Source of the DNA: Aminobacter carboxidus
GTDB lineage: Bacteria; Pseudomonadota; Alphaproteobacteria; Rhizobiales; Rhizobiaceae
Length of the DNA stretch: 64,000 nucleotides
Direction of reading: 5' to 3'
Assembly (NCBI RefSeq): GCF_014863355.1
Contig: NZ_JACZEP010000003.1
Span: 186,001-250,000 of the forward strand
Under the pieces are notes generated by a model. The model had not been told where the DNA came from. It searched no databases and saw only the letters and a program-made list of their open reading frames with translations. Positions 25,620 to 50,688 of this stretch are shown here, one piece after another; the first letter of the stretch is position 1; each line of letters begins with the position of its first letter. Both the position numbers and the translations under genes were made by a program.

Positions 25620-25955
25620 AGGTTCGTACTTCCCGCTCACGCCGCTCTTCTCCGGTTGGTTTTGATCGTAGGGCGGGCTCTGACCAGGGCCGTCTAGCCG
25701 GCCGAGGAGTGTCCCAAAACCCTGCGAGCAGTCACATGAAATGCAAAGTCGTCTCATAATGCGTTACATCGTCTCGCTAGTCAATGGCAAAACGCGACAT
25801 CCGATCCTGGCCCGTGGCTCTACAGGCACCCTGTCGTGTGACATCAGGAAAAATGGTAGAGGACGCGCGCCACAAGAGGTCAGCTTGATGAGTCCGAGTT
25901 GACCATGTTCAAAATACGCGATAAAGTCTCATAATACGAGACAATAGAGGGTGAT
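25620..25955. promoter_or_regulatory. Divergent control region with repeated GTCTCATAAT motif
   Basis: 336 bp between the ThDP-enzyme operon and the aminotransferase. GTCTCATAAT occurs at 25751-25760 and again at 25926-25935. The second copy is part of an inverted repeat GTCTC-N7-GAGAC (25926-25942), 14 bp before the aminotransferase ATG. A further GTCTC lies just downstream of the first copy. These are candidate operators for one regulator (probably the IclR protein at 20931) controlling both directions. Confidence 0.55.
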
Positions 25956-27140
25956 ATGTTTTCAAATCTCTCCACGCCGACAGCCGATCCGCTGCTCGGG
26001 ATGATGCAGCAGTTTCGCGACGACCCGAGCGCCGACAAGGTCGACCTCGGCATCGGCATCTACAAGGACGGGCAGGGCAACGCACCGGTGCTGGCAACGG
26101 TCAAGCAGGCGGAAGCTTTCCTGGTGGAGAACCAGAAGTCGAAGGCTTATGTCTCTTCGGCCGGCAATGAAGACTACAATCGCTTGACGCGGGAACTCAT
26201 CTTCGGCGCCAACAGCGGCCTGCTCGCGCGTTCGCAGGCGATCCAGACGCCGGGCGGCACCGGCGCTTTGCGTGTCGCCGGCGATTTCGCCCAGAGCGTG
26301 AAGCCGGGCGCCAAGGTCTTCCTGCCGGATCCGACCTGGCCGAACCATCCTTCGCTGCTGGCCGCTGCTGGCCTCCAGGTGGTCCGCTACCCCTACTACG
26401 ATGTTGCCTCGGGCAAGCTGCAGTTCGACCGGATGGTCGAGGCGTTGCGCGCCGCGGGTCCCGGCGATCTGGTGCTGTTCCATGGCTGCTGCCACAACCC
26501 TGGCGGTGCCGATCCGAGCCTGGCGCAGTGGGCTGAAATCGCCGAGCTGCTCGCCTCGACCGGCGCAACCCCGCTGATCGACCTTGCTTATCTCGGCTTC
26601 GGCGATGGACTTGTCGAGGATGCCGCCGGCGTCCGGCTTCTGGCCGAGCGCGTTCCTGAAATGCTGATCGCCAGCTCCTATTCGAAGAACTTCGCGCTCT
26701 ATCGCGAACGCGTCGGCGCGCTGACGGTGATGGCCAAGGATGAAGCCGCGGCCAGCCGCGCGCACGGCCACATGCTGCCGGTCGTCCGTTCCAACTACTC
26801 GATGCCGCCGGACCATGGTGCTTCGGTCGTCGCGCATATTCTCGGCGATGCCGCTCTGCGCACGACCTGGGAAGGCGAAGTCGCCGAAATGCGCGGACGC
26901 ATCAACGGCATGCGCGAAAAACTGGTGGCAGCACTTGCCGGCCGCACGACGCGCGACTTTGGCTTCCTCGGGGTGCAGCGCGGGATGTTCGCCATGCTCG
27001 GCATTACGCCGGCCGCCGCCGAGCGGATGAAGGTCGAGCACCATGTCCACATCACCAGCTCGGGCCGCGTCAACGTCGCTGGCCTGACCGACAACAATGT
27101 CGCTCACGTCGCCAACGCCATCGTGGCCGTCTGCGGCTGA
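25956..27140 (+). CDS. Aromatic amino acid aminotransferase (TyrB/AspC family)
   Basis: 394-residue class I aminotransferase of the AspC/TyrB subgroup. The cofactor-binding PGGTGALRVAGDF, the catalytic-domain FHGCCHNPGGADP (normally NPTG), the PLP lysine in SYSKNFALYRERVGALTV and the C-terminal substrate Arg in HITSSGRVNVAGL are all visible. It transfers the amino group from an aromatic or acidic amino acid to 2-oxoglutarate. Length matches the ~396-residue family. It is divergent from the ThDP enzyme and Rieske oxygenase, so it may supply the 2-oxo acid for that pathway. A hairpin terminator lies 35 bp downstream. Confidence 0.9.
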   Translation: MFSNLSTPTADPLLGMMQQFRDDPSADKVDLGIGIYKDGQGNAPVLATVKQAEAFLVENQKSKAYVSSAGNEDYNRLTRELIFGANSGLLARSQAIQTPGGTGALRVAGDFAQSVKPGAKVFLPDPTWPNHPSLLAAAGLQVVRYPYYDVASGKLQFDRMVEALRAAGPGDLVLFHGCCHNPGGADPSLAQWAEIAELLASTGATPLIDLAYLGFGDGLVEDAAGVRLLAERVPEMLIASSYSKNFALYRERVGALTVMAKDEAAASRAHGHMLPVVRSNYSMPPDHGASVVAHILGDAALRTTWEGEVAEMRGRINGMREKLVAALAGRTTRDFGFLGVQRGMFAMLGITPAAAERMKVEHHVHITSSGRVNVAGLTDNNVAHVANAIVAVCG

Positions 27141-27265: not shown

Positions 27266-28438
27266 TCAGATTTCGTAGGGCAGGCCGAGCTGGGCCTTGC
27301 GCAGCCGCTGCTGTCCGATCTCGGTGTTCCCCCAGTGGTTCAGCGTCTGGTACTGCATCCGGGTCTGGAAACTCGTCTGTCCCGGGAAGATGTGCAACGC
27401 CTCGCACATCGAGCAGGCCCAGTGAACGGTCGGCCAGATGCGGCGCAGGCACATCTGCGAATAGCTGTCGAGCAGCGTCGTGTCGTTGGTCGTCAGCAGC
27501 CGACGGATGGCTTCGGCCATGATGCGCGCGTCGCCGACGGCGAGGTTCAGGCCCTTGCCGCCGCTTGGCGGCACGATGTGCGCGGCGTCGCCGGCAATGG
27601 CGAGCCGGCCGTGGCGCATCTTCTCGCAGACATAGCCGCGCAGGCGGGCAACGCTGCGCTCGATGATCGGGCCGCGATTGAGCTGCGCTGCTGTGCCGTC
27701 GTCCATGCGGATGTCGAGTTCATCCCAGATCTGCTGATCGCTCATCGCATTGGGATCGGCGTCTGTTTCAACCTGTAAATAGAGCCGGCCGACCGAAGCC
27801 GAACGTGCGGAGGCAACAGCCAGGCCGCGCGTCGAATGGGCAAAGCCACGACGGGCGGCGAGCGGTGCCGCCTCGGCCAGGATGCCGAGCCAGGCAAACG
27901 GGTATTCGGTCAGGAAGACATGCTCGTCCGAGCCCGGAATATGCCTGCGGCTGACGCCATGGTAGCCGTCGCAACCGGCGATGAACTGGCACTCCAGAAC
28001 CTTGTCTTCGCCATTGTGGCGGTAGTGAATGCGCGGTGCGTTTTCGATATCGTCGAGGCTCGATACGTCGGCTTCAAAGACGATCGGCAAGCCGTCGGCC
28101 TCGCGCTGGAGAATCAGGTCCTCGACGATCTTCTGCTGGCCATAGGTGGTCAGGTGCCGGCCGGTGCCGTCGTCGAGCGAGATGTCGGCCTTCTGCCTGT
28201 CCCAGCACAGCTGCATCGAGCGCATCGGAATGCCCTCGCGATTGAGGCGTTCGCCCATACCGTAGGCCCGTAACGTATCGACAGTACCCGCTTCAAGGAC
28301 GCCGGCGCGCACGCGCTCGAGCACATAGGCACGCGTGCGCCGTTCCAGGATCACCGAGTCTATGCCGTTGAGCTGGAGAATACGCGCCACGAGCAGGCCG
28401 GCTGGCCCGGCGCCGATGATCCCGACCTGAGTTTTCAT
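27266..28438 (-). CDS. 4-hydroxybenzoate 3-monooxygenase homologue (PobA-like) with altered active site
   Basis: 390-residue flavoprotein hydroxylase co-linear with PobA: FAD motif IIGAGPAGLLVARIL, the R-A-G-V-L-E substrate-side loop, and the GDAAHIVPPSGGKGLNLAV motif. Aligned by eye with the remembered Pseudomonas enzyme, the carboxylate-binding Ser212, Arg214 and Tyr222 and the Arg220 position are kept, while Tyr201 is Phe (GFAHSTRGLAV), Thr294 is Ser (PPSGG) and Tyr385 is Gln (KAQLGLPYE). Tyr201 and Tyr385 form the proton relay that ionises the 4-OH, so ordinary 4-hydroxybenzoate activity is doubtful. It is the last gene of an operon containing a gallate-type cleavage pathway, 46 bp after the CHA aldolase. 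ATG 28438 is the PobA start; the extension to 28495 is rejected. Confidence 0.85.
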   Translation of the reverse strand: MKTQVGIIGAGPAGLLVARILQLNGIDSVILERRTRAYVLERVRAGVLEAGTVDTLRAYGMGERLNREGIPMRSMQLCWDRQKADISLDDGTGRHLTTYGQQKIVEDLILQREADGLPIVFEADVSSLDDIENAPRIHYRHNGEDKVLECQFIAGCDGYHGVSRRHIPGSDEHVFLTEYPFAWLGILAEAAPLAARRGFAHSTRGLAVASARSASVGRLYLQVETDADPNAMSDQQIWDELDIRMDDGTAAQLNRGPIIERSVARLRGYVCEKMRHGRLAIAGDAAHIVPPSGGKGLNLAVGDARIMAEAIRRLLTTNDTTLLDSYSQMCLRRIWPTVHWACSMCEALHIFPGQTSFQTRMQYQTLNHWGNTEIGQQRLRKAQLGLPYEI

Positions 28439-28484
28439 GAGTTCACCTGTTGCTGCTGATGAAGTTGCGGCGCCGTTTCCGGCG

Positions 28485-29153
28485 TCAGTACTCAAGGCCC
28501 TTGTCTTTGAGCCTGGCCCGCAAATTGAAGAGATCGAGGCTGAGCACGCCCTTGGCGAGTTCGGCGCGTTTGGCTTCCTCGTCGGCGATACGCCGTTCGG
28601 AGAGTTGTGCCACGGTATCGGCCAGCTCCCGAGGAATGATCACCACGCCGTCGTCGTCGGCTACGACGACATCGCCGGGATTGACCACCGCACCGGCACA
28701 CGAGACCGGCACGTTGACCGAGCCGATCGTTTCCTTGACCGTGCCCTGGGCGCAGATCGCCGTCGACCAGACCGGGAACTTCATCTGGGTGAGGTCGCGG
28801 ATGTCGCGGACGCCGGCGTCGATGACGAGGCCGATGCCGCCGCGCGCCATGACCGACGTTGCCAGAAGGTCGCCGAAATAGCCGGCGTCGGAAGGTGAGA
28901 ACGGGGCAACGACCAGGATGTCGCCCGGCTTGATCAGTTCGATCGCCACATGGATCATCCAGTTGTCGCCAGGCGGCACCAGGACCGTGACGGCACTTCC
29001 TGATATGGCGGCACCGGGATAGATCGGCCGCATCCTGGAGCTCATCAGTCCGGTGCGGCCAAGAGCTTCATGGGTGGTGGCGACGCCGGCTTTGGCTAGC
29101 CGGGCGATGGTCGCGCCGTCGGCGCGCTCGATGTTGCGGATGACCTTGTTCAT
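28485..29153 (-). CDS. ligK: 4-carboxy-4-hydroxy-2-oxoadipate (CHA) aldolase / oxaloacetate decarboxylase, RraA fold
   Basis: 222-residue RraA-like aldolase. It cleaves CHA (and 4-hydroxy-4-methyl-2-oxoglutarate) to pyruvate plus oxaloacetate or pyruvate, and decarboxylates oxaloacetate. The LigK/GalC pattern is clear: start [20 protein letters not shown], substrate loop [20 protein letters not shown], metal/pyruvate motif [12 protein letters not shown], and C-terminal helices. Length fits the ~225-residue family. It is the final step of the gallate / protocatechuate 4,5-cleavage route and follows LigJ in the same operon. Its ATG overlaps the stop of the second RraA-like gene (ATGA). Confidence 0.88.
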
Positions 29154-29806
29154 GACCGGCGCGTCTGCAGCGAGTGATAGCGAAACTTGGTGCGGGCATC
29201 GCGCAGCGACATGCCCTCGGTGATAGCCTGCCGGATGGCGTTTTCGGCGGTGGCGATCTCGTCGGCGAGGTCCAGAACCTCCGACGCGCGCTCGCTCGGA
29301 ATGACGACGACGCCGTCGGCATCGCCAACGAGAATGTCGCCCTGGCGAACCAGCGCGCCGCCGATCTCGACTGTTATGCCGGTCGCGTCGACCTGGACGC
29401 GGTCCTTGCCGGTCTTCATCGAATAGCTGCGCGAGTAGATCGGGTAGTCGAGCCGAAGGCACAGGTCGACGTCGCGGCAGGCGCCGTCGATCACCGTGCC
29501 GGCAAGGCCCTTGTGACTGGCGAGCTGGGTCATGATATCGCCCCAGACAGTGCAATCCTCGCGGCCGCGATTGTCGAGCACGACGACAGTGCCGGCCGGA
29601 AGGTCGTCGATGAAGTCGCCGACATTGCCCGGCGCCAGAACGTCGACAGGGACGTAGCGGACGGTGAAGGCGCGGCCGACGAGCCGGAACTTGTGGTCGC
29701 GTGGCTTGATGCCCCGGCAGACACCTTCGATGCCAAGCCGGTCCATGGCGTCGGACAAGGTGGCGCAGTCGTGGTTGCCGGCGCGTTCTACGGCCTGGTC
29801 GGTCAT
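29150..29806 (-). CDS. RraA-family protein, second of three tandem copies
   Basis: 218-residue RraA/HMG-CHA aldolase superfamily protein. It starts [20 protein letters not shown], has the nucleophile-side loop [20 protein letters not shown], and the metal-binding Gly-Arg-Asp motif [13 protein letters not shown]. The retained Arg-Asp pair argues for a metal-dependent aldolase or decarboxylase rather than the RNase E inhibitor role. It overlaps both neighbours by ATGA. The substrate is unknown; it could act on a substituted CHA analogue. Confidence 0.82.
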
Positions 29807-30465
29807 TGCATTGCCTCGAGCATGTCTTCGTAATCGGCGCCCAGCACCTGCGAGACCGGCTTGCCGGACTTCAGGGCCTCGACCATCAGGCGTTCCTTGG
29901 CCGCGATGCGCTCGGCGGTCCGGATCACCTTCTCCGCCTCGTCGGCGGCAATGAATACCGCGCCCGAACCGTCCGAGATGACGTAGTCGCCGGGGGCAAT
30001 CGTCACCGCCTCGATGGTGACGGGCACATTGGTTGCGACTTCGTGGACGCGGCCGCGTGCCGTGCGCACCGTTGTCGCACGGGCAAAGATGGGAAAGTCG
30101 AGCCCGTTGGCTTCGTCGACGTCTCGCAACGGGCCATCGACGATGACGCCTTGTATCCCGGCAAGGCGCGCAGCCTGGGTCAGCACGCCGCCCCAGCCGC
30201 CGGCGTCGATCCCGGGATGCGAAACCACGATGATGGAATTGGCGTCGCCGGCCTCGATGGCGCGGGCACCAAGATGCACCTTGGGGCCCCCGGCTGGCGC
30301 TGGGCCCTTGGCGAGGGCAACGGTGACGACGCGCCCTGCGACAACGCCGCCGCCGGAGCGGCGGGCGATGCCGGTGACAGCACCAGTCAGCCCGAGCGCG
30401 TCAAGCGCATCCGAGACCGAGCAGGCATCGAGCTGGCGCAGCCGTTCAAGCAGCTCCGTACTCAT
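29803..30465 (-). CDS. RraA-family protein, first of three tandem copies
   Basis: 220-residue RraA-like protein beginning [20 protein letters not shown], with the loop [20 protein letters not shown] and metal motif [13 protein letters not shown]. Like its two downstream paralogues it keeps the Arg-Asp signature of divalent-metal aldolases. ATG 30465 overlaps the dioxygenase stop (ATGA). It is diverged from both other copies, so a recent duplication is unlikely and the three probably have different substrates or steps. Confidence 0.82.
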
Positions 30466-31478
30466 GATTTGACGCCCCACCAGTACATGCCTTGCGCGGT
30501 ACCGGTGCCGGCCGGCGAGCGGTAGCAAGGGACGTAGGCCACTTCGTGGAACTCGGTGTCGTATGCTTCCATGACGCCAGCGGTGGTGATCCAGCTCTTC
30601 ATCTCCGAAGTGCCCGACTGGAGCTCCGAGAGCGGGATGCTCTTGAGGAACTCGGCATCCTTTTCGCGCATCGCCTGCATGAAGCGGGCGTCCCAGTCCT
30701 CGTCGATGGTAAAATGGCTCATGCCGCCCGAGCCGAAGACGACGACGCGGGCGTCGCTGTTCCAGGAGCGGATGGCTTCGCCGACGACCTGGCCGAACTT
30801 GTAGGAGCGCCGAGCGGTCGGCTGATTCGGCGGGAAAAAGGTGTTCTGGTAGATCGGAACGTTGGGAATGACCTTGTCGCGCATCACCTGGCGGTAGATG
30901 TGGCCGAAGGCGTGACTGATGCCGGTCGTGCGCGGATTGTGCGTCGGCAGCTTGGGTGAGACGGTGATGTCGAACTCATTGTCGACCAGATTGCCGATGA
31001 TGTGCTTGGCGAGTTCCGGCACCGTATCGTATTCGCGGTACTCTTCCGGTGCGTGGCCGGCTTCGCCCTCGGCGACACCCGGTGGCATCAGCCGGCGGCC
31101 TTCTTCGGTCGCGGGATGATGGCGGATCTTGTCGCCGTAATAGATCATGTAGGGCGGGCTCAGGTCCTCGCCGTAGATCTCGTGCTGGTCGTTGCCGAAG
31201 ATGATGGCGACGTCGGCCTTCATCGCATCGAAGGCGTCGGCCAGGCGTTCGCTGGCGACGTGGCACTTCTCGTAGTTGGCGGTCATCGCCTCCATCGTGC
31301 TGCGTTCGGCAAGGTTCTCGTCCTTGCGCAGTTCGCAGAGCTGGTCGAACGTATAGACGCCGCCGCGGAACGGATGCTGCCGCGTGCGGTCCGACTGGAC
31401 GCGCAGCAGCCATTTGTCAGGCGTGGTGTGCAGTTGCGGCCCGTGAGCCGTGCAGATGAATCCGACTATTTTCGCCAT
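30462..31478 (-). CDS. LigB-superfamily (type II) extradiol ring-cleavage dioxygenase
   Basis: 338-residue non-heme iron dioxygenase of the LigB/gallate dioxygenase group. Iron ligands expected from LigB are His12 (present, C-T-A-H-G-P), a second His near residue 60-120 (NDQHEIYG is a candidate) and a Glu in SGTSEMKSWITTAGVM. The SGGMSHFTIDEDWD loop carries the acid-base His. DesB/GalA gallate dioxygenases are ~420 residues with a LigA-like tail, and LigB needs a separate LigA. This protein has neither, which suggests a single-subunit enzyme for gallate or a methylated derivative such as 3-O-methylgallate. It lies between LigJ and the RraA trio. Confidence 0.82.
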   Translation of the reverse strand: MAKIVGFICTAHGPQLHTTPDKWLLRVQSDRTRQHPFRGGVYTFDQLCELRKDENLAERSTMEAMTANYEKCHVASERLADAFDAMKADVAIIFGNDQHEIYGEDLSPPYMIYYGDKIRHHPATEEGRRLMPPGVAEGEAGHAPEEYREYDTVPELAKHIIGNLVDNEFDITVSPKLPTHNPRTTGISHAFGHIYRQVMRDKVIPNVPIYQNTFFPPNQPTARRSYKFGQVVGEAIRSWNSDARVVVFGSGGMSHFTIDEDWDARFMQAMREKDAEFLKSIPLSELQSGTSEMKSWITTAGVMEAYDTEFHEVAYVPCYRSPAGTGTAQGMYWWGVKS

Positions 31479-31528
31479 AGGGTAGCCTCCATGTTTGCCA
31501 AGGCTGCGCTTCAGGTGACCTGGGTTGA

Positions 31529-32554
31529 TCAGGCTTCGATGTTGAAAAGCCGTGCGGCATTGCCGCCCAGGATTGCCTTGCGTTCATCATCTGAGATGAA
31601 CGACAGACCGTTGATGTGTGGGATGATGGTGTCGAAGGTCTCGCCGGTTTCCGGATCGATGGACGAACCGACTCCAGGCATTTCTGCGCCATAGAGGCAC
31701 TGCGAAGCGCCGACCACCTTGACCAGCAGCTCGATCGCGTCGCGCGAGTAGAGCACTGTGTCGAAGTAGAGCTTCTGCAGCCGATCGCGGAACCGAACGC
31801 CTGACGAGGACATGCCGTTGCGCGGCACGGTGGTCGCATCGAAGCGGCCGAGCTGGTAGGGGATCGCGCCGCCGCCATGGCTGACCAGGATCTTGAGGTC
31901 CGGGAAGTCATCAAGCACGGTCGACTTGCACAGGCCGTAGACCGCGGTGGTCTCTTCGTTGATGAAGTGCAGCGAATAGGGCTCGCGCTCAGGCGCCCGC
32001 GAACTCGCCGAATGGATGTGGCCGACGACATCCAGCTCGCAGAGCTTTTCGTAGAGCGGATACCAGTAGCGGTCGCCCATCGGCGGTGCCATGCGGCCGT
32101 TGTTTTCGAACGGATCGGGATTGATCAGGCAACCGCGAAAGCCGAACTCCTTCACGCAGCGTTCGAGTTCGCCAAGCGCTTCGGTAATCGGGCTGTCGCC
32201 GGTCTGCGGCAGGCCGGCGACGCCGTAGAAGCGCTCGGGATAGAGCGCGCATTCCTGCGCGATGATGTCGTTGGCATATTCGACGTACCAGTGGACGAGC
32301 TTCTTCGGTTCTTCCGAATGCATCAGCTGGAACGGGCGTGGCGACAGCATCTGGATGTCCACGCCGGCCTGGTCAAGGCAGGCGAGGTGGCCCATCGGCG
32401 CCATCTCGACGCGCTTGAACGCCTGCTCCAGCGCTTCGTTGGAAACCGGCGGCGCCTTGCGGCCATGCGCGCCGCGATGCGACAGGATGCTGGCCTTGTA
32501 GGCGGGAAGCTGATGCGGCACCGCCATGTGTGCGTGACAGTCGATGATTTTCAT
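31529..32554 (-). CDS. ligJ: 4-oxalomesaconate hydratase (amidohydrolase type)
   Basis: 341-residue amidohydrolase-superfamily hydratase adding water to 4-oxalomesaconate to give CHA. It matches LigJ over the whole length: start MKIIDCHAHMAVP with the H-x-H metal pair, KEM-like MAPMGHLACLDQAGVDIQML, SPRPFQLMHSEEPKKLVHW, INPDPFENNG, and VSHGGGAIPYQLGRF. Length equals the 341-residue family. It operates between the extradiol dioxygenase and the CHA aldolase encoded downstream. An extension to 32659 is rejected because ATG 32554 starts exactly at the conserved motif. Confidence 0.92.
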   Translation of the reverse strand: MKIIDCHAHMAVPHQLPAYKASILSHRGAHGRKAPPVSNEALEQAFKRVEMAPMGHLACLDQAGVDIQMLSPRPFQLMHSEEPKKLVHWYVEYANDIIAQECALYPERFYGVAGLPQTGDSPITEALGELERCVKEFGFRGCLINPDPFENNGRMAPPMGDRYWYPLYEKLCELDVVGHIHSASSRAPEREPYSLHFINEETTAVYGLCKSTVLDDFPDLKILVSHGGGAIPYQLGRFDATTVPRNGMSSSGVRFRDRLQKLYFDTVLYSRDAIELLVKVVGASQCLYGAEMPGVGSSIDPETGETFDTIIPHINGLSFISDDERKAILGGNAARLFNIEA

Positions 32555-32595
32555 CGGGCACTCCAGAATTCCAGTAAGGTTCGCATGGGCCCGCC

Positions 32596-34257
32596 TCAGT
32601 TCACTGCGGCGGCAGTGCCGGTGATGGTATCGAGCAGAGTGTCGGGGGTCGCCGGGCATGCATCGCCGCGCCAGGCGACGTGCCTGTCTGGCCGTGACAA
32701 CACAAAGGCTTCGGCATAAGGGCCACAGCCTTCGTCACCGGGCACGACGTCGAGCAGCTGGATCGGGATGCCGCGCGCCGCTGCCGCGGCCAGGAACGCC
32801 GACGCATCGCGGGCCGGGTCGAACCGCAGCAAGGTGTAGTCGGGGCCCATCGCGTCATAGAGCGAGCGCTTGTCCCCCAGCCAGATGTGCGGCGTGCGGC
32901 AGCCGGGCACCGTCGACGGTGTGAAGTCGGCCATCGAATAGGCCGGCTGTGCTGCGCCATCATAGGAAATGATCGGCGAGCGGTCGTAGTAGTAGCCAAA
33001 GTTGAGGCCGCCGCAGCAATATTGCTGGACGTTGAGGTTGTAGATCTTGCGTCCCAGTGTCTCGCGCGCGGCAGCGCCGGCCGGTGTGTCGTCCTCGATG
33101 TCGACAGGCACCACCTTGCGTTCCTTGGCCATGGCGTGGGCATGGTTCATGGCGAAGACCGAGACCTGCTCGGTGATCGGCTGACGTTCGGCGGCGTAGG
33201 CGTCGAGCATGCCTGATTTGCCCCAACCCGAGACGTTGGCGGCGAGCAGCCAGCCAAGGCACTCGGCGTCGGCGATGCCGGCGTTCATGCCATAGCCGGC
33301 GTAAGGCACCCAAAGATGTGCTGCGTCACCGCAGATGAAGACCCTGCCCTTGTGGAAGCTGTCGGCGACGAGGCGACGGCCGAACCAGTCTTCATTGGAC
33401 AGGACTTCATAGGAAAAGTCCGGGCCGACGCCGAGGATCTCGCGGATCGACCAGTCACGGTCGACGCTGTCGAAGTCCGGTTCGTCGTCGCGCAGATAGT
33501 TGTGCACCAGCCAGGTCTCGCGGCCGTCGATGGCATAGACGTTGCCGCTGCGTCGCGGATTGAGTGAAAAGCTCGCCCATGCCGGCGCGTCGTTCATCAG
33601 GCCGAGCAGCTGCGGTGAACGGATGTAGGTCGACTGCACGCGCTGGACGACGGCGTCGCCGACAAGCTTGGCGCCGATGTCGCGGCGGACCTGCGAACGG
33701 CCACCATCGCAGCCGGCGAGGTAGCGCGCCGAGATCGTCGTCTGCTCGCCAGAGTCGATATTGCGGGCGCTGATCTCTACCCCGTCTGTGGTCTCAGCGT
33801 GCGACAGATATTCGGTGCGGTTGAGCACCGTCAGTCCCGGCATTGCCACTGCGTGTTCGAACAGGATCGGCTCGAGGAAGAGCTGGTTGATCCGGTGCGG
33901 CGGCTCGGCCGTCGGCCAGTCGGTATCGGGCCCGCCGGTTGCCGTGAAGCGGTCGCGCCGGCAGGGGATCGGGATGCGGGTAATCGCCTTGCCGGTCATC
34001 GAGGTGCGATAGGCGATGTCGTTGGCATAGTCCTCGGGCAGACCAGCGTTGCGCGCAGCATTGGCCACGCCCAGACGCCGCAGGATCTCCATCGAACGCG
34101 CCGAGACGTGATTGCATTTGACGTTCGGCGGCTCGCCGCGATGGCGAGTCTCCAGGATCGTCACCGCCACGCCGCGCTGCGCCAGGATCATGCCCAGCGT
34201 CAGCCCGACAGGTCCCGCGCCGACAATGAGGACGTCGGTCTTCAGCGCCGAGGTCAT
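32596..34257 (-). CDS. FAD-dependent aromatic monooxygenase (MhpA/PheA-like)
   Basis: 553-residue flavoprotein aromatic hydroxylase. The FAD motif VLIVGAGPVGLTLGMILAQR lies at residues 9-28, the DG motif at YLAGCDGGRSQVRR, and the second FAD motif at GRVFICGDAAHLWVPYAGYG. A C-terminal thioredoxin-like domain ends the protein, a layout seen in MhpA and resorcinol or phenol hydroxylases. It uses NAD(P)H directly, yet its ATG overlaps the stop of a Rieske ferredoxin-like gene (ATGA), which is unusual for this class. It probably hydroxylates, or oxidatively removes a group from, the upper-pathway substrate; the substrate is not known. Confidence 0.88.
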   Translation of the reverse strand: MTSALKTDVLIVGAGPVGLTLGMILAQRGVAVTILETRHRGEPPNVKCNHVSARSMEILRRLGVANAARNAGLPEDYANDIAYRTSMTGKAITRIPIPCRRDRFTATGGPDTDWPTAEPPHRINQLFLEPILFEHAVAMPGLTVLNRTEYLSHAETTDGVEISARNIDSGEQTTISARYLAGCDGGRSQVRRDIGAKLVGDAVVQRVQSTYIRSPQLLGLMNDAPAWASFSLNPRRSGNVYAIDGRETWLVHNYLRDDEPDFDSVDRDWSIREILGVGPDFSYEVLSNEDWFGRRLVADSFHKGRVFICGDAAHLWVPYAGYGMNAGIADAECLGWLLAANVSGWGKSGMLDAYAAERQPITEQVSVFAMNHAHAMAKERKVVPVDIEDDTPAGAAARETLGRKIYNLNVQQYCCGGLNFGYYYDRSPIISYDGAAQPAYSMADFTPSTVPGCRTPHIWLGDKRSLYDAMGPDYTLLRFDPARDASAFLAAAAARGIPIQLLDVVPGDEGCGPYAEAFVLSRPDRHVAWRGDACPATPDTLLDTITGTAAAVN

Positions 34258-34664
34258 GGCCGAGGCTCCCTGACGGTCAAAACAACGTCGCCGTTGCTCA
34301 CCTGCACAGGAATGGGCGTCAGCCCGACATTCTTATCGATCGGATGGCGACCGGTGAGCATGTCGAACTCGAAGCCATGCCAGGGGCAGACGATGTGCAA
34401 CTGCTCCTTGGAGAAGCCGAGGCCGAGGCTCTTGCCGTTGTCGGCCACCAGCTCCAGCGTGCGCGGCATGATCTTGCCCTGGCACACCGGGCCGCCCATG
34501 TGCGGGCAGATGTTGAGATAAGCGCGGACTTCCTCGCCGACGAAGTAGACGCCGATGCCTGTGCCATCGACGTCGATGACCATTCGCTGGCGCTTCTTGA
34601 GTTCGTCGTGCCGGCCCAGCACGATCTGCCGCGACGTTCCCGCCGCCATGTCGGCGCCGCTCAC
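34254..34664 (-). CDS. Rieske [2Fe-2S] ferredoxin-like protein
   Basis: 136-residue Rieske domain protein. Cluster ligands are in C-P-H-M-G-G at about 54-59 and C-P-W-H-G-F-E about 40 residues later; the ~38-residue spacing is longer than the usual 16-20, with an insert (LVADNGKSLGLGFSKEQLHI) between the two ligand pairs. It could be a ferredoxin partner of an oxygenase or a free-standing redox subunit. The start is GTG 34664 with GGAGG 5 nt upstream, overlapping the upstream stop (GTGA). It sits between the 103-residue protein and the FAD monooxygenase. Confidence 0.85.
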   Translation of the reverse strand: MSGADMAAGTSRQIVLGRHDELKKRQRMVIDVDGTGIGVYFVGEEVRAYLNICPHMGGPVCQGKIMPRTLELVADNGKSLGLGFSKEQLHIVCPWHGFEFDMLTGRHPIDKNVGLTPIPVQVSNGDVVLTVREPRP

Positions 34665-34972
34665 GATGCCCTCCGGAACCACATGGCGAGGTCGAACACG
34701 TTGAGGTCGGCGGCGCGCAGAAGCTCACTGACCAGGACTGCGGTTTCGGTGGCGGTCAGAGCGTCCTGGTTGACTGGCGGGAAAATCTTGTCCGACTTCT
34801 CGACCTTGGCCGCGTAAAGCTTTCCAAGAGCGGCGAGTGCGACTGCGATGTCGGCCTCGCTGATCTTTTCGAGCGTTCCCGAAGCAAGGGCCTCGTCTGC
34901 TGCCGCTGCAATTGACGCGGCTGCCGCGCTGAAACCAGCGCCATGTTCTGAAGTTATCATTGTCTGTGCCAC
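34661..34972 (-). CDS. Small protein of unknown function in aromatic operon
   Basis: 103 residues, Ala-rich and helical. A conserved-looking C-terminal part is VTE-like ALTATETAVLVSELLRAADL then NVFDLAMWFRRAS. There is no signal peptide, metal motif or HTH. It is not a LigA-type alpha subunit, lacking that family's pattern. GTG 34972 overlaps the previous stop (TAGTG), ATG 34960 is an alternative, and its stop overlaps the ferredoxin start. Such coupling suggests a stoichiometric partner of the ferredoxin or monooxygenase. Confidence 0.7.
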   Translation of the reverse strand: MAQTMITSEHGAGFSAAAASIAAAADEALASGTLEKISEADIAVALAALGKLYAAKVEKSDKIFPPVNQDALTATETAVLVSELLRAADLNVFDLAMWFRRAS

Positions 34973-36225
34973 TACGATGCGGTTTTCGGGCGATTGGCGA
35001 GGACGTCCTCGGCCAGCGGCTTGCGGCGTGCCGTATCCAGCTTGAACAGCCGCGCGGCGTTCAGGCCGAGGATGTTGCGCTTGGCCTGTTCGGAGAGGAA
35101 AGGCAGCGAGTCGATGGTCGCCGGCGAGTCCCAGTCCCAGTGCGGCCAGTCCGAGGAGTAGAGCAGCTGGGTCTCGGCGTTCATCGCCTCCATGGTCGCT
35201 TCAAGAAGCTTCATGTTGGTGCGTTCGAGCGGTTGGCTCGTGTAGTACATCTCGCGCATGTATTCGCTCGGCAGCCGCTTGAGGCCGGGCGCCTCGCTTG
35301 GCCGCATCAGCACCTCGTGGTCGAGGCGCTGCATCAGGAACGGGATCCAGGCGAGGCCGCTTTCCACCCAAAGCATGTTCAGCTTGGGGAAGCGCTCCGG
35401 CATCGCGTTGACGATCCAGTTGGTGAGGTGGATCTGGTTGTAGTGGGTGAACGACAGCGCATGCATCGACAGGAAGCGGTTGAGCTGGGCGAAGGACGGA
35501 TCGCCCCAGTGGTAGCCGGAGTGGAAGGCCAGCGGCTTGTCCAGTTCCTGGATCATCGAATAGAGCCGCATGTAGCAGTCATGGTGGACCGGCTTGTTGC
35601 GGGTCGAGCAGACGGTGAAGCCGATGATGCCTTCGGTGTCGCCGTAGCGCTCGACGAGCTCCTCGCACGCCTCGGGCGAATTGAAGGGCAAATAGAGCAA
35701 GCCCTTCATGCGGCTGTCGATCGGCAGGATGCGTTCGATCATCCAGCGGTTGAACGCCTTGGCCAGCGCCACCTCGATCTCATCCTGCGGATGCATGCCG
35801 AGCAGCAGCATGGCGCTAGGGAACACCACCTGGTAGTCGAGACCCATCGCATCCATGCTGCGGCGGGCGGTCGAGATGAAGCGGTGGACGCTGTCGTCGT
35901 TCACCGGCTCGCGCCGGCCCTGGTGGCCGATGCGGCCGCCGACACTCTGCAGCGACAGGCCCGGCGAGATGTTGAGCAGGGCGTTCGATCCGCCGAAGCC
36001 CTTGACCTGGTGCTGGCCGATCTGGCGCAACACGTCGTTGTCGATCAGGTCGATGATCTCGGACCAGAAATGGTCTTCCGAGACGTGGGCATCGACGTCG
36101 ACGATAAGATAATCGTCAAAGTTCCTCGCCGCCTGGCGCGTGGCGTGCGCGAGCACATCGCGCGAGTCGGTCGAGCCGGTGATTTCACCGATCTCACGGA
36201 AGTTGGGAATGGAATGCTCGGTCAT
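34972..36225 (-). CDS. Amidohydrolase-family protein (ACMSD/LigW-like)
   Basis: 417-residue metal-dependent hydrolase or decarboxylase. DVDAHVSEDHFW replaces the classical H-x-H with D-x-D-x-H at about residues 43-47. The central His is in AFHSGYHWGDPSF, and the late Asp is in YSSDWPHWDWDSP. Large members of this group hydrolyse or decarboxylate aromatic acids (gamma-resorcylate and 5-carboxyvanillate decarboxylases are relatives). It lies between the aldehyde dehydrogenase and the small protein, in the upper part of the operon. ATG 36225 is chosen over a TTG at 36240. The reaction is not assigned. Confidence 0.82.
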   Translation of the reverse strand: MTEHSIPNFREIGEITGSTDSRDVLAHATRQAARNFDDYLIVDVDAHVSEDHFWSEIIDLIDNDVLRQIGQHQVKGFGGSNALLNISPGLSLQSVGGRIGHQGRREPVNDDSVHRFISTARRSMDAMGLDYQVVFPSAMLLLGMHPQDEIEVALAKAFNRWMIERILPIDSRMKGLLYLPFNSPEACEELVERYGDTEGIIGFTVCSTRNKPVHHDCYMRLYSMIQELDKPLAFHSGYHWGDPSFAQLNRFLSMHALSFTHYNQIHLTNWIVNAMPERFPKLNMLWVESGLAWIPFLMQRLDHEVLMRPSEAPGLKRLPSEYMREMYYTSQPLERTNMKLLEATMEAMNAETQLLYSSDWPHWDWDSPATIDSLPFLSEQAKRNILGLNAARLFKLDTARRKPLAEDVLANRPKTAS

Positions 36226-36236
36226 TGCGCTACGCT

Positions 36237-37676
36237 TCAACCCTGTGTCACGAATTTGGTCACGAGATAGCTGTCCAGGCCTTCCGACCCGCCTTCGGAG
36301 CCGTAGCCACTTTCCTTGACGCCGCCGAACGGGGTCTCGGGCGTCGTCAGCACCATGTTGTTGATTCCGACCATGCCGGACTCCAACTCGTCGCCGATGC
36401 GTGTGGCGGTGGTGGTGTCGCGGGTAAAGGCATAGGCGGAGAGACCGAAGGGCAGCCTGTTGGCCTCGGCAACGACCTCGTCGAAATCCTTGAACCGGCG
36501 CGTCACCGCAACCGGGCCGAACGGCTCCTCGTTCATGATCCGCGCTTCGTTCGGCACGTCGGTCAGAACTGTGGGCTGCCAGAAGTAGCCGCGGTCGCCT
36601 GTCCGTTCGCCACCCAGTTCAACGCGCGCCCCGGAGCGTTGCGCGTCCGAAACCAGGCTTTCCATGGCGTCGATGCGGCGACCGTTCGCCAAAGGTCCCA
36701 TCTGGGTCTCCGGATCGAGGCCGTCGCCCAGCCTCAGCGAGGCTGCGACTTCACGAAACCTCGCGACAAACTTGTCGTGGATCGACTCGTGCAGGTAGAA
36801 CCGCGTCGGCGTGATGCAGATCTGGCCGGCATTGCGATACTTCGACCGCGCCGTCATTTCGGCTGCCTTCTCGACGTCGGCGTCGGCGAAGACGATGGTC
36901 GGCGCATGGCCGCCGAGTTCGAGCGTCGCCGGCTTGACACCGTCGGCGGCCAGCCTGGCGAGATGCTTGCCGACGCGGGTCGAGCCTGTGAACGAAATCT
37001 TCTTGATCACCGGCGATGCGATCAGATGCGTCGAGATCTGGTCCGGCACACCGAAGACGATGTTGAGCACACCATGGGGAAGGCCGGCATCGGCAAGGGC
37101 CTGGGCGATCGCCAGGGTTGGCGATGGCGTTTCCTCGGCCGGCTTGGCAATGCACGAGCATCCGGCGGCAAGGGCCGCGGCGATCTTGCGCGCCGGGATG
37201 GTGACGGGAAAATTCCACGGCGTGAACACGGCGACCGGGCCTATCGGGTCGCGGAACACCAGGCTGCGCACGCCTGAGGTGCGCGACGGAATGATGCGTC
37301 CATAGGCGCGGCGGCCTTCTTCGGCGTACCAGTCGAAGATATCAGCAGCGCCATGCACCTCGGCCATCGAATCGCCGACCGGCTTGCCTTGCTCCAGCGT
37401 CATGGCACGGGCGATGCCTTGTGCGCGTTCACGCAGCAAACCCGCCGCGCGGCGCAGAATACCGTAGCGCTCGAATGCCGAAACCTTGCGCCAGGAACGG
37501 TATGCGGCTGCGGCCGCAGCGAGGGCATCGTCCAGGTCGGCTGTGGTTGCGACCGGGATTTCGCCGATGGTTTCGCCGCTGGCGGGGTTGATGACCGGCA
37601 GGATCTCGCGATCGTTCGCCCGAACCCTCTCAGAACCGATGCGCAACGAGCGATCTATCTGACCTTCTGTGACCAT
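36237..37676 (-). CDS. NAD(P)-dependent aldehyde dehydrogenase (succinate-semialdehyde dehydrogenase-like)
   Basis: 479-residue ALDH. Cofactor-binding ITGS-type ISFTGSTRVGKHLARL, catalytic Glu in LELGGHAPTIVFADADVEKA and catalytic Cys in NAGQICITPTRFY are present, with the C-terminal NMVLTTPETPFGGVKESGYG. Class resembles GabD. It is the first gene of the ten-gene leftward operon, so it probably oxidises an aldehyde formed from the upper-pathway substrate (an aryl aldehyde, or formaldehyde-equivalent chemistry elsewhere). ATG 37676 is used because the extension to 38354 overlaps the divergent regulator. Confidence 0.9.
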   Translation of the reverse strand: MVTEGQIDRSLRIGSERVRANDREILPVINPASGETIGEIPVATTADLDDALAAAAAAYRSWRKVSAFERYGILRRAAGLLRERAQGIARAMTLEQGKPVGDSMAEVHGAADIFDWYAEEGRRAYGRIIPSRTSGVRSLVFRDPIGPVAVFTPWNFPVTIPARKIAAALAAGCSCIAKPAEETPSPTLAIAQALADAGLPHGVLNIVFGVPDQISTHLIASPVIKKISFTGSTRVGKHLARLAADGVKPATLELGGHAPTIVFADADVEKAAEMTARSKYRNAGQICITPTRFYLHESIHDKFVARFREVAASLRLGDGLDPETQMGPLANGRRIDAMESLVSDAQRSGARVELGGERTGDRGYFWQPTVLTDVPNEARIMNEEPFGPVAVTRRFKDFDEVVAEANRLPFGLSAYAFTRDTTTATRIGDELESGMVGINNMVLTTPETPFGGVKESGYGSEGGSEGLDSYLVTKFVTQG

Positions 37677-38616: not shown

Positions 38617-38745
38617 CCATGGAGGAACGGCCGGGCACCGTGCCTTGCCGCTTTGGTTTCAAGCCGAATGCAGAGGGGAATGCCTGCTGAACGTCGCAAG
38701 AGAAGCGACGTTGCGGGTCAATTTGCGAAAAAGGGAGTGAGGAAG

Positions 38746-40275
38746 ATGTTTACGATTTCGCGCCGGAGCCTGCTCAAGATCTCAGCGGCTTCCGGCCTGA
38801 TGGCGGCATTGCCTGGCGGCGGCGCCTGGGCGGCCGCGCCCAAGCGCGGCGGCCACCTTGTCGTGGCGAGCGGTGGTGCGTCGACTGCGGATTCGCTGGA
38901 TCCCCGGACCTTCGGCTCGCCCTACACGGCGGTCATGTCCGGCATCACTTACAATTCGCTGATCGAGGTGCATGGCCTTGATATGGAACTGCGGCCCGGC
39001 CTCGCCAAGAGCTGGGAGCCGTCCAATGGCGGCAAGACCTGGATCTTCGATCTGGTTGAAGGTGCCACGTTCCACAATGGCAAGGCCTTTACCAGCGAGG
39101 ACGTGGTGTTTTCGCTCAAGCGCCATGCCGAAGAGGCCTCGCGTTCCAACATGCGCAGCATCATCAAGGGCGTCGCCGATATCCGCGCCGACGGTCCGAA
39201 CCGCGTCATCATCGACCTGCCCGAAGCCAACTACATGTTCCCGGCCATGCTGACGGCATTCTCGCTCGGCATCGTTCCGGCCGGCACGACGACCTTCGAC
39301 GGTGTCGGCACCGGCCCTTACAAGCTGAAGAGGTTTTCGCCGGGCGAGGTTCTCGAAGCCGAGCGCAACGAGAACTATTTCAAGTCGGACGCAGCTTTCG
39401 TCGACAGCCTCGAATTCCTGGCCATCAACGATGCCTCGGCACTGGGCAGCGCCTTCCAAAGCGGCCAGATCCACCTGACCACGCTGCTCGACGCGCGCAC
39501 CGCGCCGCTGATGCGGCAGATGCCGAACCTCAAGATTTACAACACCGAGGGCCGCGGCTTCATCTGCTTCAACATGCGCACCGACATGGCGCCGTTCGAC
39601 AATCCCGACATGCGCATGGCGCTCAAGCTCGCCGTCAACCGTCCTGATATGCTTGAGCGTGTCTCGGTCGGCGTCGGCCGCATCGCCAACGACACGCCGG
39701 TGGCACCGAGTGATCCGGTCTTCGCCGCCGAACTGCCGCAGACCGAATACGATCCGAAGCGCGCCAAGGAACTGTTCGACAAGACCGGCTTCAAGGGTCC
39801 GCTCGTGCTGCAGACCTCGGAAGCGATCTCGTCGCGCGCCGTCGACATGGCCGTGATCTTCCAGGAGCACGCCGCCAAGGCGGGCATTCCGATCGAGGTC
39901 AAGCGCGAGCCCTCGGACGGCTATTGGGAAACCATCGTCGGCCAGACGCCGTTCCACGTTTCGGCCCGTTCCGACCGGCCGACGGCGGATGCGATCTTCT
40001 CGGTCGCCTTCCTCGGCACCTCGGGAAACAACGAGTGCAAGTGGGTGAACAAGGACTTCGACACCGCGGTGATCGCCGCGCGTGCCGAGCCTGACCTCGA
40101 GAAGCGCAAGGCCTTCTATGCGACGGCGCAGAAGATCTGCCGGGAAGATGGCGGCACCATCATTCCGTTCTTCTCCAGCACGGTCGAAGGCACGACCAGC
40201 GACCTCGACGGTTTCGTGCCGTCGGCTCTGCAGATGGCGGGCTACCGCGCCATCGAGCAGGTCTGGTTCGCCTGA
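38746..40275 (+). CDS. Peptide/nickel-type (SBP family 5) ABC transporter substrate-binding protein
   Basis: 509-residue periplasmic binding protein. The N-terminus MFTISRRSLLKISAASGLMA has a twin-arginine (S-R-R-S-L-L-K) signal, with cleavage near A-W-A-A-A, which implies Tat export. The body carries family 5 features: SLDPRTFGSPYTAVMSGITY, LAKSWEPSNGGKTWIFDL and FNMRTDMAPFDNPDMRMAL. ATG 38746 has GGGAG and GAGG upstream; the frame opens earlier at 38653 without support. It leads the importer operon (dppB-, dppC-, dppDF-like) and probably delivers the aromatic substrate or a conjugate, since family 5 proteins bind varied ligands. Confidence 0.9.
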   Translation: MFTISRRSLLKISAASGLMAALPGGGAWAAAPKRGGHLVVASGGASTADSLDPRTFGSPYTAVMSGITYNSLIEVHGLDMELRPGLAKSWEPSNGGKTWIFDLVEGATFHNGKAFTSEDVVFSLKRHAEEASRSNMRSIIKGVADIRADGPNRVIIDLPEANYMFPAMLTAFSLGIVPAGTTTFDGVGTGPYKLKRFSPGEVLEAERNENYFKSDAAFVDSLEFLAINDASALGSAFQSGQIHLTTLLDARTAPLMRQMPNLKIYNTEGRGFICFNMRTDMAPFDNPDMRMALKLAVNRPDMLERVSVGVGRIANDTPVAPSDPVFAAELPQTEYDPKRAKELFDKTGFKGPLVLQTSEAISSRAVDMAVIFQEHAAKAGIPIEVKREPSDGYWETIVGQTPFHVSARSDRPTADAIFSVAFLGTSGNNECKWVNKDFDTAVIAARAEPDLEKRKAFYATAQKICREDGGTIIPFFSSTVEGTTSDLDGFVPSALQMAGYRAIEQVWFA

Positions 40276-40289
40276 CAGGACTGGACGGC

Positions 40290-41270
40290 ATGACTCTGTT
40301 CGCCAATTCCCCGGTGAAATCGTTCGTAGTCGCCAGGGTTGCGTCCGGGCTCGTGTCGATCTTTTTCATTTCGTTCCTGGTTTTCCTGGGAACGTCGATG
40401 CTGCCGGGCGACGCAGCCAATGCGTTGCTCGGCCAGAATGCCACCCCTGAAACGGTCTTGGCCCTGCGCACGGAGCTGGGCCTCGACCAACCTTTGCCGG
40501 TGCGCTACTTCCATTGGCTTGGCAATGCGCTGCATGGCGATTTCGGAACCTCGCTCTCCAACGCGCAGCCGGTGATCAACCTGTTGGTGCCGCGGCTGAT
40601 CAATTCGCTGATCCTTGCCTTTTCGGCGGCGGCGATCGTCCTGCCGCTCGCCGTCGGCATCGGCTTGCTCGCCGCCATCAACCGCGGCAAGGCACTCGAC
40701 ACTGCCACCGGTTCGATCTCAGCGATCTTCCTGTCGATGCCGTCATTCCTGATCGGTTACCTGCTGGTCTTCATTTTCGCGGTCAAGCTCGGGCTGTTTC
40801 CGCCCTTGTCGATGGTCCGTTCCAGCGCCAGCCTGCCAACCTGGATTTCGGCCCTGACATTGCCGGTGCTGACCCTGGTGCTGGTCGCGCAGGCCCATGT
40901 AATGAAGCTGACCCGTGCCGCCGTGCTCGGGGTGATGAGCTCCGACTACATTCTGATGGCAGAGACCAAGGGCATTCCCCGCAACAGGATCATCCTCAAG
41001 CACGCGCTGCCCAATGCGTTGTCGCCGATTGTCTCGATCTGCATGATCACCATGGCCTACCTGATCGTCGACGTCGTGGTGATCGAAGCCGTGTTCAACT
41101 ATCCGGGCATGGGCAAGCTGATGGTCGACGCGGTTGCCTATCGCGACATCCCGATGGTGCTGGCCTGCGGCGTGCTGTTTTCGACGATCTTTATCTCACT
41201 CAACTTCACCGCCGACTTGTTGGCCATGCTCGTCAATCCGCGTCAGCGCCTGCCCAGGAAGGGGAACTGA
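40290..41270 (+). CDS. Peptide/nickel-type ABC transporter permease (DppB-like)
   Basis: 326-residue permease with six predicted helices. The first cytoplasmic/periplasmic segment carries MLPGDAANALLGQNATPETV, typical of DppB. The coupling loop includes AETKGIPRNRIILKHALPNA and the C-terminal signature is EAVFNYPGMGKLMVDAV. It pairs with the DppC-like protein encoded 3 bp downstream and starts 14 bp after the binding-protein gene. Confidence 0.93.
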   Translation: MTLFANSPVKSFVVARVASGLVSIFFISFLVFLGTSMLPGDAANALLGQNATPETVLALRTELGLDQPLPVRYFHWLGNALHGDFGTSLSNAQPVINLLVPRLINSLILAFSAAAIVLPLAVGIGLLAAINRGKALDTATGSISAIFLSMPSFLIGYLLVFIFAVKLGLFPPLSMVRSSASLPTWISALTLPVLTLVLVAQAHVMKLTRAAVLGVMSSDYILMAETKGIPRNRIILKHALPNALSPIVSICMITMAYLIVDVVVIEAVFNYPGMGKLMVDAVAYRDIPMVLACGVLFSTIFISLNFTADLLAMLVNPRQRLPRKGN

Positions 41271-41273
41271 ACC

Positions 41274-46082: not shown

Positions 46083-46092
46083 GACGATGTCC

Positions 46093-47768: not shown

Positions 47769-47776
47769 GTCACTGC

Positions 47777-48757: not shown

Positions 48758-48772
48758 GATGTCTGTTCCCGC

Positions 48773-50290: not shown

Positions 50291-50301
50291 TGAGGTTTCC
50301 G

Positions 50302-50688
50302 TCACTTGTTCCGCAGGCGCGGGTGGATGGCGTTGTTTTTCCAGCTCAGCTCGGCATCGATCTCGCGGATCTCGAGTGAAAGCGCGAAATGAGGCGTGGC
50401 AAAAAGAGGTGCGAGAGACGCGTTCGCGGCGGCGAAGATCGCTGCGCCGGCCTGTTTCTTTTCTTCAGTGGAGCGGCCTGCGCCGATTCTGAAGCTCATG
50501 TCGATGAAGCCGTTTTCGGGTAGGCGGTCGGCAATCGCATAGGCGTCGCAGCGCAGCGCCCGCACCCTGACTGCGCCGTGTTCGAACAGGCCGGTGTCGA
50601 GGATCGCCTGCGACAGCTCTCCGCACAGCGCCGGCATGTCGACGCGGCCGTCGAGATTGGCGGAATATTCGAGCGTGAGGTGAGGCAA
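50302..50688 (-). CDS. hpaF: 5-carboxymethyl-2-hydroxymuconate delta-isomerase
   Basis: 128-residue tautomerase-superfamily isomerase. After Met removal the N-terminal residue is the catalytic Pro-1 (M-P-H-L-T-L-E-Y-S). Conserved regions include LFEHGAVRVRALRCDAYAIA and DMSFRIGAGRSTEEKK. Length equals the CHMI family (126-130). It is the first gene of the leftward hpa operon, 31 bp from a palindromic operator. Confidence 0.93.
   Translation of the reverse strand: MPHLTLEYSANLDGRVDMPALCGELSQAILDTGLFEHGAVRVRALRCDAYAIADRLPENGFIDMSFRIGAGRSTEEKKQAGAAIFAAANASLAPLFATPHFALSLEIREIDAELSWKNNAIHPRLRNK

Follow-up and report, generated by a model that had tools for sequence, protein, structure and literature searches.

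In a 64,000-nucleotide stretch of the Aminobacter carboxidus genome (contig NZ_JACZEP010000003.1, positions 186,001 to 250,000; called the window below), eleven genes run in one direction on the - strand from position 37676 down to 27266. Their content suggests that this operon is probably a variant of the LigZ/LigY biaryl pathway, with a lower part known from the lignin-dimer pathway and an upper part built on a probable amidohydrolase-related dinuclear oxygenase (ARO). We read it as a route for breaking down a 3-substituted 4-hydroxybenzoate that most likely forms half of a biaryl, and put the probability of this reading at roughly 0.6. The genes, taken from the open reading frames (ORFs) of the window, are, in order:

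36237..37676, - strand: NAD-dependent aldehyde dehydrogenase (ALDH), succinate-semialdehyde-dehydrogenase-like, 479 amino acids (aa); Pfam Aldedh, 545 bits
34972..36225, - strand: probable ARO, probable terminal oxygenase, 417 aa; from its top PDB matches and invariant residues
34661..34972, - strand: 103-aa protein, predicted helical, partner of the ARO clade; no match in Pfam or NCBIfam
34254..34682, - strand: soluble Rieske ferredoxin with a probable AibG-like role; Pfam Rieske, 48 bits
32596..34257, - strand: group A flavin hydroxylase (FAD monooxygenase, FMO), PRK06126 subfamily, 553 aa; related to RebC and 2-hydroxybiphenyl 3-monooxygenase
31529..32554, - strand: LigY-type meta-cleavage-product hydrolase; from PDB scores, identity to SYK-6, and a tree
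30462..31478, - strand: LigZ-type class III extradiol dioxygenase; 51% to SYK-6 LigZ, and a tree
29803..30465, - strand: RraA-like protein 1 (RraA1); 54% to the gene that follows ligZ in SYK-6
29150..29806, - strand: RraA-like protein 2 (RraA2); 57% to the gene that precedes ligY in SYK-6
28485..29153, - strand: LigK, 4-carboxy-4-hydroxy-2-oxoadipate (CHA) aldolase; TIGR02798
27266..28438, - strand: PobA-like flavin hydroxylase of a LigYZ-linked subfamily; R199, G200, F201, V210, S294, and Q385 in PaPobA numbering

A conserved gene set with a shared lower block

Neighboring genes of the operon are separated, in order, by 11, -1, -22, -4, 41, 50, -4, -4, -4, and 46 bp (negative values are overlaps). 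A preliminary description of this DNA had spoken of a ten-gene operon, although its own list held eleven genes; it had correctly reported a one-direction run with overlaps or gaps under 51 bp (-22 to +50 bp as measured). Family matches also agree with its assignment of the ALDH, amidohydrolase, 103-aa protein, Rieske ferredoxin, FAD monooxygenase, RraA pair, CHA aldolase, and PobA homologue. A pattern scan for promoters and terminators in positions 27100-38000 gave no more matches than shuffled sequences.

The eleven-gene run is a real operon-like gene set that recurs in other genomes beyond chance, because all eleven genes are found together, in different orders, in a metagenome-assembled genome (MAG) of Proteobacteria bacterium RHODO2 (locus L032) and in Sinisalibacter aestuarii (L033), and nine of them share a 16-kb contig of a Rhodobacteraceae MAG (L031). 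The preliminary description had proposed looking for the upper block elsewhere, and in L032 and L033 its genes are indeed found again as part of a single catabolic set. Every gene of the operon has a counterpart of 87-99% identity on plasmid pAA01 of A. aminovorans, and the ARO has matches of 95-99% in a total of six Aminobacter plasmid records. The operon ALDH, whose top NCBIfam model is succinate-semialdehyde dehydrogenase with a score under that model's cut-off, has relatives of 64-65% identity in L031-L033, 68% in a Polymorphobacter locus (L023), and 59% adjoining an ARO in L174.

Conservation was assessed in the best 80 of 161 LigY loci confirmed in one scan; these have flanks of at most 10 kb and include three from Aminobacter and several on short contigs, and gene presence was judged by bit-score thresholds of our own choosing. 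LigZ was found in 60 loci, RraA1 in 56, RraA2 in 43, PobA in 10, and ARO in 7. The same seven loci also hold the 103-aa protein and the ferredoxin, and the remaining 73 are without this ARO trio. Loci that keep the lower block without the upper one had been named beforehand as a case that would speak against linking the two; they prevail here (73 of 80), and the linked arrangement stands in seven, so that the upper block appears to be one of several that feed a shared lower block. The lower block is shared across loci, and the upper block varies: in a Xanthobacteraceae MAG (L084), LigY and LigZ are accompanied by the ARO trio and an HpaB-type hydroxylase, and the Polymorphobacter locus has LigY, LigZ, two RraA genes, an aldolase, and an ALDH with no ARO match.

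By homology, the lower block is a biaryl meta-cleavage module (LigZ/RraA/RraA/LigY) with LigK added. The gene called LigJ in the preliminary description is LigY-like: it scores 412 bits to LigY (PDB 6e6i) versus 202 to LigJ (6dwv), and its product is 53% identical to SYK-6 LigY and 35% to the product of the SYK-6 gene at the LigJ position. Likewise, the dioxygenase (family PF02900), described as LigB-type, resembles LigZ rather than GalA/DesB or LigB, with 51% identity over residues 1-335 (nearly full length) to the SYK-6 LigZ gene at 818.8-819.8 kb, versus ~30% over half its length to four SYK-6 paralogues, those at the LigB and DesB positions included. The SYK-6 LigZ gene was identified by its position and its locus tag, SLG_07720 (PMC12997858), and the 5,5'-dehydrodivanillate (DDVA) cluster by position, SLG numbering, and the description of the ddv genes (PMC6874591). 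Two RraA-like genes lie between ligZ and ligY in SYK-6, 54% identical to RraA1 and 57% to RraA2, so the DDVA pathway and the operon share the same four-gene module.

Trees agree with these assignments. With 24 (LigY) and 27 (LigZ) rows hand-picked from fetched loci, the window hydrolase groups with LigY and the dioxygenase with LigZ, apart from the LigJ and the LigB/DesB positions (support of 81/95 for setting the LigJ-position gene apart and 99/97 for the LigB/DesB group); in each tree, three rows (including DesB) carry a flag for being long or partly filled, and several inner branches are weak. Given this grouping and the module of the DDVA cluster, the operon would be expected to pass through a 5-substituted protocatechuate, with the substituent released as a carboxylic acid, rather than through the trihydroxybenzoate of the preliminary description.

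LigZ and LigY act on a catechol that bears a carbon substituent: the ring is opened next to that substituent, which is then split off as a carboxylic acid, with 4-carboxy-2-hydroxypentadienoate as the other product. When the latter is hydrated, 4-hydroxy-4-methyl-2-oxoglutarate results, a substrate type of LigK-class aldolases; the presence of LigK next to LigY and LigZ can therefore be understood without invoking gallate. For the step that remains on the C5 dienoate after LigY, the RraA pair is the obvious candidate. LigK itself scores 344.2 bits to TIGR02798 (cut-off, 304.5) and is 64% identical to SYK-6 LigK. It was the only close match when the ORFs of at least 120 aa from the 19-kb SYK-6 protocatechuate-4,5 region (L122, taken as ligC to ligI from locus numbering) were compared with the window by tblastn; the other matches were the LigJ- and LigB-position genes and antisense shadows. 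No homologue of LigC, LigI, LigU, or LigA was seen in this search, which was limited to the window. The earlier statement that LigC, LigI, LigA, and a tautomerase are absent agrees with this search of the window, and its conclusion that protocatechuate 4,5-cleavage does not fit is supported.

SYK-6 has a second LigY-LigZ-RraA-RraA-LigK-like cluster, distinct from the DDVA cluster at 0.82 Mb (L075, contig range 2088880-2109878, positions 9902-14059), and similar sets occur in Cupriavidus, Paraburkholderia, and Sphingobium loci. On a Bradyrhizobium plasmid (L024, positions 7082-10993), a LigY/LigZ/RraA/RraA set has a RidA-family gene and two P450 genes nearby, a context that perhaps reflects a nitrogen-containing substrate in that lineage.

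A probable ARO-based upper block and two flavin hydroxylases

The first amidohydrolase belongs to the amidohydrolase family, as had been described (PF04909, Amidohydro_2); within it, the protein is nearer to AROs than to hydrolases or decarboxylases. Its five best PDB sequence matches are 8sm7, 8sm6, 8sm9, 6m1w (which we take to be AibH1H2), and 8sm8, at 82 to 118 bits; decarboxylases appear among the weaker matches (2dvt, 54 bits). Structures 8sm6 (SfbO), 8sm7, 8sm8, and 8sm9 are described as AROs or candidates found through neighboring Rieske ferredoxins (PMC10811679), and the length given for AibH2, 378 (PMC7782822), equals that of the 6m1w chain. The SfbO metal site consists of three carboxylates and three histidines (PMC10811679). 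In the window protein, H235, H266, E288, and D359 align with the same residues of 8sm7 in a significant segment and, together with D45 and H47, are invariant across eight aligned rows; these six residues may be the metal ligands. In the Aib system, electrons pass from a flavin/2Fe-2S reductase to a Rieske ferredoxin (PMC7782822), and the operon contains a small Rieske ferredoxin gene near the ARO gene. The operon amidohydrolase is thus probably an ARO acting as terminal oxygenase. It shares with the AibH1H2/AibG/AibF and SfbO systems an Amidohydro_2 protein beside a small Rieske ferredoxin and a PDR/VanB-type reductase on the same island; unlike them, it has an extra 103-aa partner, no second amidohydrolase of the AibH1 kind in the trio, and a setting in an aromatic operon.

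In this ARO clade, the 103-aa protein regularly accompanies the oxygenase in loci that have the ferredoxin. An ARO search of 385 class-level genomes gave matches in 17, and 30 stored loci of the 34 matches listed were compared, with flanks of ~1.5 kb; the set includes the locus of the window genome itself as well as several copies from a single genus. A profile of ten small-protein sequences, the window's own among them, found a member within ~1.5 kb of the ARO in 23 of the 30 loci (L152 and L140 adjoin each other, and their hits are probably one and the same gene). A Rieske motif was found in 21 loci, and the regular association follows from the presence of the small protein in all 21; seven loci had neither, and two had the small protein with no Rieske motif. 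In 73 LigY loci taken as background, the best E value of the profile was 3.9. A structure model of the protein has four predicted helices, with a predicted local distance difference test (pLDDT) score of 74.3, and a fold search with it returned no PDB match at E <= 0.001. In the parts of the Aib and SfbO papers available to us (PMC10811679, PMC7782822), no mention of a small third component was found.

The contexts of 14 further ARO loci, some on stretches ending at contig ends, are diverse (ALDH, alpha-hydroxy-acid oxidase, acyl-CoA dehydrogenase with CoA-transferase, gluconolactonase-like, and Nramp genes) and indicate no single ARO reaction. One locus (L169, 7684-10268) has two adjacent ARO-like genes, 56% and 55% identical to the window ARO, after one ferredoxin and one small partner, an arrangement reminiscent of AibH1H2. 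Three genomes of one genus (G318, G408, and G485) have four ARO matches each at E <= 1e-60, an expansion of this clade; five of their loci (L142, L143, L155, L159, and L160) are without a ferredoxin motif or small partner within ~1.5 kb. On Salipiger (L022) and Phaeobacter (L025) plasmids, the surroundings of the ARO trio include genes for a Rieske oxygenase, an alpha-hydroxy-acid oxidase, and a PDR/VanB reductase, and a Mu-type transposase gene lies a few kilobases off.

The operon also encodes two flavin hydroxylases. The PobA homologue noted in the preliminary description is present, but it scores 406.8 bits to TIGR02360, below the equivalog cut-off for 4-hydroxybenzoate hydroxylase (538.7); a second PobA elsewhere in the genome, among ORFs that by eye resemble a pca cluster, passes at 692.7 bits. 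All ten LigYZ-linked PobAs aligned, the window's included, have R199, G200, F201, S294, and M or Q385 and keep S212, R214, R220, and Y222; the canonical PobA of the same genome has L199, I200, Y201, T294, and Y385. Near-identical copies (Aminobacter L018 and L028 and extra copies of the window's own protein) were omitted from this alignment. Residues 212, 214, and 222 hold the carboxylate in PobA, and in XaPobA, residue 199 helps to enclose the 3-hydroxyl, the natural loss of Tyr201 and Tyr385 going with a 3-substituted substrate (PMC10770758). As judged from the alignment, the operon protein belongs to a distinct LigYZ-linked subfamily in which the carboxylate site is kept and both tyrosines contacting the 4-hydroxyl are lost (Tyr201 to Phe, Tyr385 to Met/Gln, with Leu199 to Arg and Thr294 to Ser). 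Its substrate may be a 3-substituted, perhaps anionic, 4-hydroxybenzoate. Assignment as a protocatechuate 5-hydroxylase of clade F, to which XaPobA belongs, was considered and rejected, as the signature V/I199, W201, M210, F385 is replaced by R199, F201, V210, Q385.

The FMO is homologous over nearly its full length to 2-hydroxybiphenyl 3-monooxygenase (HbpA) and RebC (E values of 3e-42 and 5e-73), belongs to a subfamily of its own, and has relatives of 58-61% identity in L032 and L033. Flavonoid (fde) and isoflavone (ifc) clusters, which also pair an FAD monooxygenase with a ring-cleaving dioxygenase, were rejected as models: the dioxygenase here is of family PF02900, not glyoxalase-like as FdeC and IfcB are (IfcB is described as a putative glyoxalase similar to FdeC; PMC11069340).

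Proposed pathway and alternatives

In the pathway that we favor, the ARO with the 103-aa protein and the ferredoxin (perhaps served by the reductase at 22934-23911) and the ALDH would trim or oxidize a side chain to a ring carboxylate. The FMO or the variant PobA would then hydroxylate next to the phenol, giving a 5-substituted protocatechuate. The next two steps are well supported by orthology: the LigZ-type dioxygenase would open the ring beside the substituent, and the LigY-type hydrolase would cut the C-C bond, yielding the substituent as a carboxylic acid and 4-carboxy-2-hydroxypentadienoate. The RraA pair and LigK may convert the C5 piece via 4-hydroxy-4-methyl-2-oxoglutarate to two pyruvates, and the released acid may be handled by the other flavin hydroxylase together with the pca or hpa pathway that this genome encodes. 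Compared with the DDVA pathway, the operon is without the O-demethylase LigXa and the decarboxylase LigW among its eleven genes and adds the ARO trio, two flavin hydroxylases, an ALDH, and a linked LigK. The first five genes do look like an upper pathway, as had been suggested. No description of it or of the operon was found in open-licence PubMed Central papers, among which no search was aimed at the whole operon.

If this is correct, the LigZ/RraA/RraA/LigY module would be a portable biaryl-splitting core fed by different upper pathways in different bacteria, with the RraA pair flagged as candidates for the C5-dienoate steps. The dinuclear oxygenase class would gain a concrete catabolic context with a testable product, and one of its clades would have a small protein as a constant third component; a PobA subfamily whose pocket is altered would also be defined.

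Several points weigh against the biaryl pathway. The function of the operon is deduced from gene content, and the substrate is a proposal. The second LigYZ-type cluster of SYK-6 matched no described pathway, so LigY/LigZ homology does not fix the substituent. The separation of the LigJ group is only moderate (81/95), and the bootstrap of the LigY tree had not settled; LigK, as a true CHA aldolase, would also suit gallate-type chemistry. ARO residues D45 and H47 align to 8sm7 only in an insignificant segment (-3.1 bits), and the AlphaFold model of the ARO, built from the eight-row alignment, is poor (mean pLDDT of 51.7), so that the dinuclear site rests on sequence alignment. The ARO is found in 5 of 10 same-genus genomes (this one included, at least 95% identity), with no match in the other five, which makes it accessory. 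Of the genes that flank it, an aromatic amino acid aminotransferase (AAT) and a thiamine diphosphate (ThDP)-dependent enzyme occur near the operon in only 4 of the 80 LigY loci at the thresholds used (three Aminobacter and L032) and are not in the stretches around L033.

As an alternative, LigZ/LigY chemistry might act on a 4-hydroxybenzoate with a small 3-substituent (methyl, carboxyl, or methoxyl), with no biaryl involved. Arg199 of the variant PobA would suit a polar or anionic 3-substituent such as carboxylate, and three loci (L085, L086, and L090) hold PobA-LigY-LigZ sets with neither ARO nor LigK at the thresholds used; the closest characterized relatives, however, act on a biaryl, and two flavin hydroxylases plus an ARO seem more than a monomer would need, so we consider this improbable. 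The gallate-type route of the preliminary description, in which gallate would be formed by the variant PobA or the FMO and cleaved by the dioxygenase, with the LigY-like protein as oxalomesaconate hydratase and LigK for the last step, is disfavored and appears quite improbable. It shares a bona fide CHA aldolase with known gallate operons (DesB/GalA, LigJ or GalB, LigU/GalD, LigK/GalC), and PobA engineered at positions 199 and 385 hydroxylates protocatechuate, as does the natural 5-hydroxylase XaPobA, which has neither Tyr201 nor Tyr385 (PMC10770758). Against it, the hydrolase groups with LigY and the dioxygenase with LigZ, separate from the rows at the LigJ and LigB/DesB positions, the RraA pair is arranged as in the DDVA cluster, and the variant PobA is without the XaPobA signature. 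Families, PDB matches, SYK-6 paralogues, and trees identified the LigK/GalC aldolase and no dioxygenase of the DesB/GalA clade; neither an oxalomesaconate tautomerase nor a LigJ/GalB hydratase was seen in the operon, in a search of the window that did not include GalB-type hydratases, which have another fold.

The first amidohydrolase could also be a hydrolase or a decarboxylase of the gamma-resorcylate or 5-carboxyvanillate type, with the ferredoxin serving another enzyme. Such decarboxylases belong to the same Pfam family and are among the weaker PDB matches of the protein, but the five top matches are all AROs or candidate AROs, and both the Rieske motif and the small partner accompany 21 of the 30 clade loci within ~1.5 kb; this seems very unlikely.

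Flanking genes and a possible island

The operon lies among further genes that may be accessory to it:

21743..22918, - strand: Rieske oxygenase alpha subunit, accessory; 33% identity across 371 aa with a Rieske oxygenase gene close to ligY in SYK-6
22934..23911, - strand: PDR/VanB-type reductase, candidate reductase for the Rieske ferredoxin
23973..25640, - strand: ThDP-dependent enzyme (PRK08266 subfamily; 706 bits, cut-off 571), putative 2-oxo acid decarboxylase, accessory
25956..27140, + strand: AAT (NF006719; 517 bits, cut-off 377), accessory; 56% in L032
37840..38616, + strand: divergent regulator, annotated as FCD domain-containing in pAA01
38653..43669, + strand: dipeptide-type ABC transporter (substrate-binding protein, two permeases, ATPase), accessory; 66-75% in the L032/L127 island
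43746..45152, + strand: second aldehyde dehydrogenase, accessory
45279..50688, - strand: hpaIHGDEF homoprotocatechuate meta-cleavage genes, possibly serving the second ring

The continuation of L032 and L127 carries an M20 peptidase, an AAT (56%), a second ALDH (41%), a ThDP enzyme (45%), an ABC transporter (66-75%), a Rieske oxygenase (59%), and a reductase (47%); apart from the M20 peptidase, each of these also flanks the Aminobacter operon. In L031, hpaE-, hpaF-, and hpaR-like genes (67, 39, and 42%) stand beside the operon, as hpa genes do in the window. HpaB_N had no match in the whole genome, in which hpaDEFGHI are present; the same model matched 6 of 14 control genomes.

Because the flanks of L032/L127 and L031 share island genes and HpaB_N is absent, the operon and its flanks (about 20-51 kb of the window) might form one island devoted to a biaryl derived from amino acids (dityrosine or its peptides, for example), a proposal that we regard as possible but unlikely. 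The dipeptide-type transporter would import the biaryl, and the AAT, the ThDP decarboxylase, and the aldehyde dehydrogenases would shorten its side chains. The ARO with its ferredoxin and 103-aa partner would oxidize the remaining arylacetate to a benzoate, and a flavin hydroxylase, LigZ, and LigY would split the biaryl. The second ring would leave as a salicylate-type acid, which a flavin hydroxylase may convert to homoprotocatechuate or protocatechuate for the hpa or pca genes. This would be a new pathway using an ARO in aromatic catabolism. Dityrosine had no occurrence among the literature matches listed, a weak negative since the term was optional in the searches.

Together with hpaR, the homoprotocatechuate genes span positions 45279-51263 of the window. 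Relatives of the ThDP enzyme are found in L032 (45-46%) and adjoining an ARO in a Neorhizobium locus (L019, 40%).

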